Shown piece by piece: positions 1,762 to 1,960 of a stretch of 47,465 bases of DNA. The position numbers and the translations under genes are program-made. The notes beneath the pieces were generated by a model, which was not told the DNA's origin, did not search any database, and saw only the letters and a program-made list of their open reading frames with translations. Within the stretch, counting starts at the first letter, position 1; the number at the start of each line of letters is the position of its first letter. Origin of the DNA: Endozoicomonas ascidiicola (GTDB taxonomy: Bacteria > Pseudomonadota > Gammaproteobacteria > Pseudomonadales > Endozoicomonadaceae); assembly GCF_001646945.1 (NCBI RefSeq), contig NZ_LUTV01000004.1, forward strand, positions 8,002-55,466, given 5' to 3'.

Positions 1762-1960
1762 GTTAAAATAGCAGGAAAGCGAAATCAGGCTTCCTGCCTG
1801 ATCATTGCCTTTCTTCCTGAAAGAGATTTGGACATCCTGTCCTGTGGCTTCCTGCCTGGTGTCATCCTTGATAATACGTCAGCTGTCTGCCTCCGTGGCC
1901 TTTGAGACTTCCTGTCTCAGCTGACGGTTACCATTATGCAATGTGATCCCTGTCACGGAT
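1762..1960 (-). ncRNA. Predicted CsrB/RsmZ-type regulatory RNA (CsrA/RsmA sponge)
   Basis: This stretch has no credible ORF, yet on the minus strand it shows a series of short hairpins with different stems but nearly the same loop. Plus-strand coordinates are: GTGA/TCAC around CAGGGA (1943-1956); TGAGAC/GTCTCA around AGGAA (1903-1919); GCC/GGC around ACGGA (1889-1899); an AAGGA site (1865-1869); GGC/GCC around AGGAA (1846-1856); GGACA/TGTCC around GGA (1830-1842); CTTTC/GAAAG around AGGAA (1809-1823); TCAGGC/GCCTGA around AGGAA (1785-1801). GGA in a hairpin loop is the recognition site of CsrA/RsmA, and one site contains ACAGGATGT, very close to the CsrA consensus. A GCAGGAA/TTCCTGC stem followed by TATTTT ends the array as a probable terminator. 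Exact ends and promoter are not resolved. Confidence 0.72.

Follow-up and report, generated by a model that had tools for sequence, protein, structure and literature searches.

A predicted CsrA-sponge RNA of the CsrB/RsmZ type beside tRNA genes in Endozoicomonas ascidiicola

GGA-loop hairpins between tRNA genes

The window analysed here is a 47,465-nucleotide (nt) stretch of the 6.13-Mb Endozoicomonas ascidiicola genome (G000, contig C24), and our subject is a putative RNA gene on its minus strand. A scan of named genomes with the protein encoded beside the tRNA-Leu genes had its nearest matches in Endozoicomonas (96% with an uncultured member, 74% with E. elysicola and E. acroporae). Upstream of this gene lie two tRNA-Leu(CAG) genes (2362-2276 and 2228-2142) and downstream a tRNA-Thr(TGT) gene (1122-1047), all on the same strand and useful as syntenic markers. 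In the interval between the tRNA-Leu pair (2362-2142) and tRNA-Thr, positions 1927-1765 are predicted to encode an RNA of about 163 nt that would act as a CsrA sponge of the CsrB/RsmZ type, a prediction drawn from its GGA hairpins, fold, homologues, covariation and match to the Rfam CsrB model.

A scripted hairpin search finds six GGA-loop hairpins within the 163-nt RNA, namely TGAGAC-AGGAA-GTCTCA, GCC-ACGGA-GGC, GGC-AGGAA-GCC, GGACA-GGA-TGTCC, CTTTC-AGGAA-GAAAG and TCAGGC-AGGAA-GCCTGA, and a seventh, GTGA-CAGGGA-TCAC (1951-1938), that falls outside it. Dinucleotide shuffles of a 172-nt stretch yield a mean of 0.58 such hairpins and a maximum of 5, and none of 2000 shuffles reaches six. The number of GGA motifs by itself is ordinary: the preliminary description had reported eight in about 170 nt of the minus strand, we likewise count 8 in the RNA (9 across 1960-1762), and the shuffles average 4.9, with 101 of 2000 reaching 8. 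Scanning both strands in 172-nt windows at 20-base steps places the peak GGA-hairpin density of the whole window at this locus; elsewhere in the same genome the GGA-cluster pattern also matches at C2:115402 and C31:462634. The predicted fold of 1927-1765 has an energy of -57.0 kcal/mol (z -4.1), a stability equalled by none of 200 shuffles.

The predicted structure comprises two minus-strand domains. In the 5′ domain (1877-1926), supported by covariation, a basal stem formed by CGTCAGCTG (1877-1885) and CAGCTGACG (1918-1926) surrounds GGA hairpin 1 (1919-1903) and GGA hairpin 2 (1899-1889). This basal stem had been put forward as a long-range pair in the preliminary description, and it is both present in the window and kept in relatives. 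The 3′ domain (1765-1856) contains four hairpins (GGC/GCC, GGACA/TGTCC, CTTTC/GAAAG and TCAGGC/GCCTGA), followed by GCTTTCCTGC-TATTTT.

Homologues, covariation and control elements

Using the RNA stretch as query, blastn finds matches in 10 of 56 genomes, its own included; the relative G011 is 98% identical to the window's stretch. We then searched 37 genomes of the family Endozoicomonadaceae with R1, a covariance model built on the 5′ domain; 22 of them contain matches at E <= 0.1. Nine of the twelve Endozoicomonas genomes match at E <= 4.8e-20, scores that follow by construction because all nine were used to build R1. All ten genomes of the genus g6 also match (E 5.5e-14 to 9.9e-5), and nine of these matches are independent, G016 being the only g6 member in the model. 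The remaining three positive genomes are G015, with repeat arrays, and the marginal G018 and G024, whose matches on contigs C46 and C35, respectively, were rejected for want of a GGA series. R1 also matches in G021 C32 at E 0.044 (L123), and in E. elysicola DSM 22380 it places the RNA at L019 5026-5125. In the window's own genome, one locus falls below E 0.05; the second match (C24:21662, E 0.08) was rejected because by eye it resembles coding DNA. R2, a further model that covers the promoter as well, gave matches at E 0.01-0.42 in four of 34 other genomes, of which only L206 (G046) looks real by eye, L207-L209 having been discarded because they contain no GGA series.

Synteny extends the sequence matches. 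In g6, tRNA-Thr(TGT) lies within 1.5 kb of the RNA in 10 of 10 genomes and the tRNA-Leu(CAG) pair in 7 of 10, with the tRNA order around the RNA the same as in the window. Within Endozoicomonas, the RNA adjoins the tRNA-Leu pair in G007 and G008 and, at a contig end, tRNA-Thr in G011. Five further Endozoicomonas genomes (G002, G003, G004, G009 and G010) have the RNA but lack any tRNA gene in the surrounding 1.5 kb. What the locus of G002 has in common with those of the other four is only about 290-400 bases. From this short shared stretch, it looks as if the RNA gene and its promoter moved as a unit. The preliminary description had held that loss of the GGA loops in relatives with retained tRNA-Leu genes would refute its reading. 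Loss of the RNA beside tRNA-Leu is seen in E. acroporae (L020), which keeps both tRNA-Leu genes and has no R1 match in the 4.7 kb covered, and in G003, but the latter carries the RNA at another place than tRNA-Leu. The finding therefore counts only partly against the reading. Both genomes now have a phage-integrase gene (PF00589) behind tRNA-Leu.

Covariation was tested in 19 sequences (18 distinct rows) on three helices, namely the basal stem plus the stems of the first two hairpins. Of all cells, 97.7% are paired (96.3-100% per helix), compared with at most 47.1% in slid controls. The check on relatives that had been proposed at the outset bears out a structured RNA: six of the 12 pairs have changed at both positions, a number reached by 2 of 500 shuffles, and such changes occupy 19 cells versus 5.6 in shuffles, with none of the 500 shuffles reaching either 19 cells or the observed covariation score. 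Compensatory changes are present in all three helices. Under a GGA loop retained in nearly all rows, the stem of hairpin 1 varies as GAC/GTC, AAC/GTT and GGC/GCC and that of hairpin 2 as GTC/GAC, ATC/GAT, TTC/GAA and GCC/GGC; in the window, G011 and G008, hairpin 2 has ACGGA or ATGGA as its loop. These comparisons indicate that the RNA structure is under selection.

Upstream of the RNA, alignment A6 reveals a -10-like element on the minus strand, CATAAT (TGCATAAT, 1938-1933), from which we infer a transcription start near 1927. It stands out in the window, in G011 and in the genus g6, and is less distinct in the remaining Endozoicomonas genomes; in this alignment, the rows of G031 and G032 are out of register at hairpin 2. 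A sigma-70 consensus scan of the window found no promoter, the -10-like element being recognized from the alignment alone. An activator-like site of the GacA type (TATGGCGAATATCTCACA, 18 bp, minus strand, 2001-1984) stops 56 nt short of the basal stem and is identical at 13 of 18 positions to the Pseudomonas brassicacearum GacA upstream activating sequence (UAS) as printed in PMC7911923. The corresponding sites of the other 18 rows match that UAS at 8 to 13 of 18 positions. Spacing from site to basal stem was measured on 17 of 20 rows (L008, L114 and L116 were left out). Sixteen of them have 53-56 nt, and the remaining one, G012, whose start was chosen by eye, has 59. A UAS-type pattern has its single match in the window at TATGGCGAATATCTCACA, with a chance expectation of 0.27 at <=2 mismatches, a figure that flatters the match because two degenerate positions of the pattern were set after viewing this very site. 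The GTGA/TCAC hairpin (1951-1938), which the preliminary description had included in its list of GGA hairpins, is better taken as promoter DNA because its place is ahead of the probable start, between the activator-like site and the -10-like element, and because it occurs, among 19 upstream stretches, only in the window and G011; all other listed hairpins proved real.

At the 3′ end, the terminator-like structure that had been noticed near 1765 is present in the window and in G011 as a stem followed by TATTTT (1770-1765), a poor T-run. A terminator-like scan of the window returned a weak site at 1794-1775 only. A stem with a T-run ends the RNA in the other 17 measured relatives, with GTTTTC in G056. 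Because GCTTTCCTGC can pair with a GCAGGAAGC segment as a terminator stem, a GGA site would serve as the terminator's 5′ arm. In the window species and G011, one GGA site may double as terminator arm, and if it does, CsrA occupancy could affect the RNA's own 3′ end.

Family placement and competing explanations

The Rfam CsrB model (RF00018) matches the window with 28.1 bits (E 4.5e-6 over 441 bases), and CsrB is the sole Csr/Rsm family reported there when the best-scoring clan member is kept per overlap. The Rfam search suggested beforehand was therefore positive for CsrB in the window, but below the gathering cut-off of 71 bits; at gathering, the window and 20 related loci contain tRNAs only. 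Matches to CsrB were also obtained in four of seven related loci tried (L163, L004, L109 and L107; 25.3 to 53.7 bits), with E 2.1e-12 and 5.7e-12 in two g6 loci, and none at E <= 0.05 in L206, L161 and L113. Matches to Thr_leader, STnc370, MicC and similar families were set aside, as they cover the hairpin behind tRNA-Leu (~2100-2137). By RF00018's own cut-off, the RNA is outside that family. By the features tested, it fits the CsrB/RsmZ functional class, with predicted CsrA binding and a weak terminator.

The genome contains the protein partners of such an RNA. A csrA gene, whose absence would have told against the CsrB/RsmZ assignment in the preliminary description, is present (NCBIfam equivalog, 119.4 bits versus a cut-off of 73), as is a GacA/UvrY equivalog (301 bits versus 280) in an intact 213-amino-acid (aa) frame adjoining uvrC. 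A 929-aa kinase with an sCache_4 domain has BarA as its best NCBIfam model, which scores 503 bits on a 653-aa piece of the protein (model cut-off 890). Accordingly, csrA, GacA/UvrY and a BarA-like kinase occur together in this genome, as the class calls for csrA and gacA/gacS. Another CsrA-like protein is encoded in the same genome (L012 1501-1830, G000:C31:703717); it is divergent, 109 aa long, and has its CsrA domain split by an insertion.

Taking together the evidence, all of it from sequence (hairpin excess, covariation, homologues, synteny, Rfam CsrB match, promoter elements and pathway genes), we consider it highly probable that the locus is a GacA-activated small RNA gene of the CsrB/RsmZ type whose product is a CsrA sponge. 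The class named in the preliminary description is likewise favoured by the covariation, the -10-like and activator-like sites, the terminator-like end and the pathway genes. In the proposed mechanism, phosphorylated GacA would turn the RNA gene on, and the ~163-nt RNA would engage several CsrA dimers by way of its GGA loops; hairpins 1 and 2, which share the basal stem, would suit one dimer. CsrA would thereby be drawn off its target mRNAs and translation of the targets released. The Gac/Csr pathway often governs lifestyle switches, which would make this RNA a concrete, testable control point. PMC9296628 describes Endozoicomonas as commonly associated with corals and further marine animals. 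In this marine-animal symbiont, the RNA very probably serves to soak up CsrA, a global regulator.

A number of observations weigh against this assignment. Three Endozoicomonas genomes (G001, G005 and G006) have no match with R1 or R2, and G006 is a single 7.2-Mb contig. Neither RF00195 (RsmY) nor any other Csr/Rsm family of clan CL00106 reaches gathering in the window or the 20 related loci, and a whole-genome search with the CsrB model returned nothing at E<=1. The palindromic GacA box reads TGTRAG-N6-CTYACA. At the window's site it has three mismatches, no better than chance (23 matches across the window at <=3 mismatches versus 53 expected), and it is exact upstream of the G012 candidate; a Vibrio form of this box is printed in PMC6262261. 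The poor U-run of the window's terminator, which competes with the GGA hairpins, is a further difficulty, as is the loss of GGA from hairpin 1 of G004 (AGGCA). In a test of the ten sequences gathered first, those of nine Endozoicomonas plus that of G016, covariation did not exceed the shuffled background, 101-106 of 500 shuffles scoring as high, and the covariation statistics are to be read with the caveat that shuffles leave shared ancestry in them.

The position of the RNA directly downstream of two tRNA-Leu genes, on the same strand in the window and several relatives, would also suit a long 3′ extension of the tRNA-Leu transcript, or a leader acting in cis, rather than a separate RNA, the GGA hairpins then belonging to the 3′ end of the tRNA operon. 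We judge this very improbable: a hairpin with a T-run follows the second tRNA-Leu gene (~2107-2133; recognized by eye, absent from the terminator scan list), the -10-like element and activator-like site separate tRNA-Leu from the RNA, and in the five genomes G002, G003, G004, G009 and G010 RNA and promoter occur together away from tRNA genes. Just as little probability attaches to a CsrA-binding RNA with a role other than titration, whether it serves a second CsrA-like protein, for which the divergent 109-aa protein with its split domain would be a candidate, or acts as a base-pairing RNA escorted by CsrA. Repeated sites with changing stems are a known mark of titration, which we count against such a role, and by eye we see no conserved single-stranded stretch that would suit base pairing (A3, A5; no target search was run). 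Least credible of all are fortuitous hairpins or a decayed, functionless repeat array; the RNA is missing from some relatives and its hairpin number varies widely, but the compensatory changes and the upstream site are conserved across two genera, and the hairpins exceed those of shuffled sequences.

Regarded as a titrating RNA, the element can be set beside known systems. With CsrB/RsmB (RF00018) it shares serial CAGGA-type hairpins, a GacA/UvrY-type upstream site and, in relatives, a U-run terminator; unlike it, 133 window bases align to a 356-position model, and the genomic neighbours differ. E. coli CsrB has 22 GGA, as stated in PMC7652899. RsmX/Y/Z resemble the window RNA and its shorter relatives in length class and GGA number, and the window's activator-like site is close to the printed Pseudomonas UAS. 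In contrast, none of these families is reported for the window (best clan member only), RsmY appearing in L107 at E 0.027, and the window's family has a basal stem with two hairpins as well as tRNA synteny. Vibrio CsrB1-4, as presented in PMC6262261, are similar in GacA (VarA)-type control, in orthology by synteny and in copies that duplicate and move, whereas R1 detects a single strong copy in the window's genome. Alcanivorax CsrR1 and CsrR2 are also predicted CsrA-sequestering RNAs of a marine bacterium, but PMC9788540 describes CsrR1 as derived from the hfq leader and CsrR2 as associated with a ferredoxin gene. No Csr RNA of Endozoicomonas was found in print in the open-access literature, in agreement with the preliminary description, and the genus goes unmentioned in the main text of PMC5568370, a paper on GGA-hairpin prediction. 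The functional class is known, and this branch of CsrB-type RNAs appears to be undescribed.

Size variation and further GGA-rich loci

The RNA differs greatly in size among 19 copies, whose ends were set by hand (G012 was left out, and GGA in the terminator stem was counted). The smallest are 118-119 nt long with 4-6 GGA (G056, G057, G033 and G034), followed by the window and G011 (162-163 nt, 8 GGA), the other seven Endozoicomonas together with G031 and G032 (193-218 nt, 11-14 GGA), and G028, G025 and G021 (243-292 nt, 11-17 GGA). The copy in G016 is 450 nt long and contains 29 GGA, and 20 hairpins were scored in it. The shortest and longest copies belong to one genus, and both adjoin the tRNA-Leu pair and tRNA-Thr. 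One tentative reading, whose chances we put slightly short of even, is that a single Csr sponge is resized at the address between the tRNA-Leu(CAG) pair and tRNA-Thr(TGT) by gain or loss of GGA hairpins, from 118-119 nt (4-6 GGA) to 450 nt (29 GGA) within one genus. RsmZ and CsrB forms would then be states of one locus, and the hairpin number would tune CsrA titration. In the portions of the literature reached by a thin search, no size series spanning RsmZ and CsrB sizes at one syntenic locus was found. The 19 copies form a natural series for relating the number of CsrA sites to the strength of titration, and they could seed a family now missed at Rfam cut-offs.

Other GGA-rich loci were seen along the way. 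From 30 loci (L130-L159), those in G015, G018, G023, G006 and G024 were taken with more DNA. In G015, a 70-bp unit is repeated 6.8 times on the minus strand of C122 (L161 4112-4640). The array consists of alternating GGA-loop hairpins with compensating stems, and 30 GGA hairpins were scored in it, some as overlapping alternatives; just before the array stands TGGCACG-N4-TTGC, a sigma-54-like motif. This array may be a CsrA sponge of very large size, from a different genus within the family. On C50 of the same genome, L160 (3004-4255) repeats a 20-bp unit 63 times, each copy containing one CAGGAAG; by eye, stems in variant units are not kept by compensation, from which it may be a plain minisatellite. 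A CsrB-like RNA candidate of the genus g8 (L162 1900-2900, minus strand, and L163 190-390, in G018 and G023) has a GacA-like site and GGA hairpins, with no tRNA gene in the stretches covered, and L163 scores 25.3 bits with Rfam CsrB. In another family of the order, L206 1500-1830 (G046:C59) is a candidate RsmZ/CsrB-like RNA gene with a TGTGAG-N6-CTTACA site, TGTGAGATATTTCTTACA, GGCATAATAG, a -10-like element, AAGGA hairpins and a terminator. Between five tRNA-Leu genes and tRNA-Thr(CGT), L166 2243-2520 (G012:C7) combines an exact TGTGAG-N6-CTCACA site with three GGA-loop hairpins and is perhaps a diverged copy of the window's RNA.

Within the window, a run of ten G at 1748-1757, just past the end of the RNA, is broken by an A in G011 (L002) and is a possible slippage site or assembly artefact. 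A 26-bp partial copy of the tRNA-Thr gene (96%) at 1224-1249, about 100 bp from the gene, is perhaps an attachment-site remnant.
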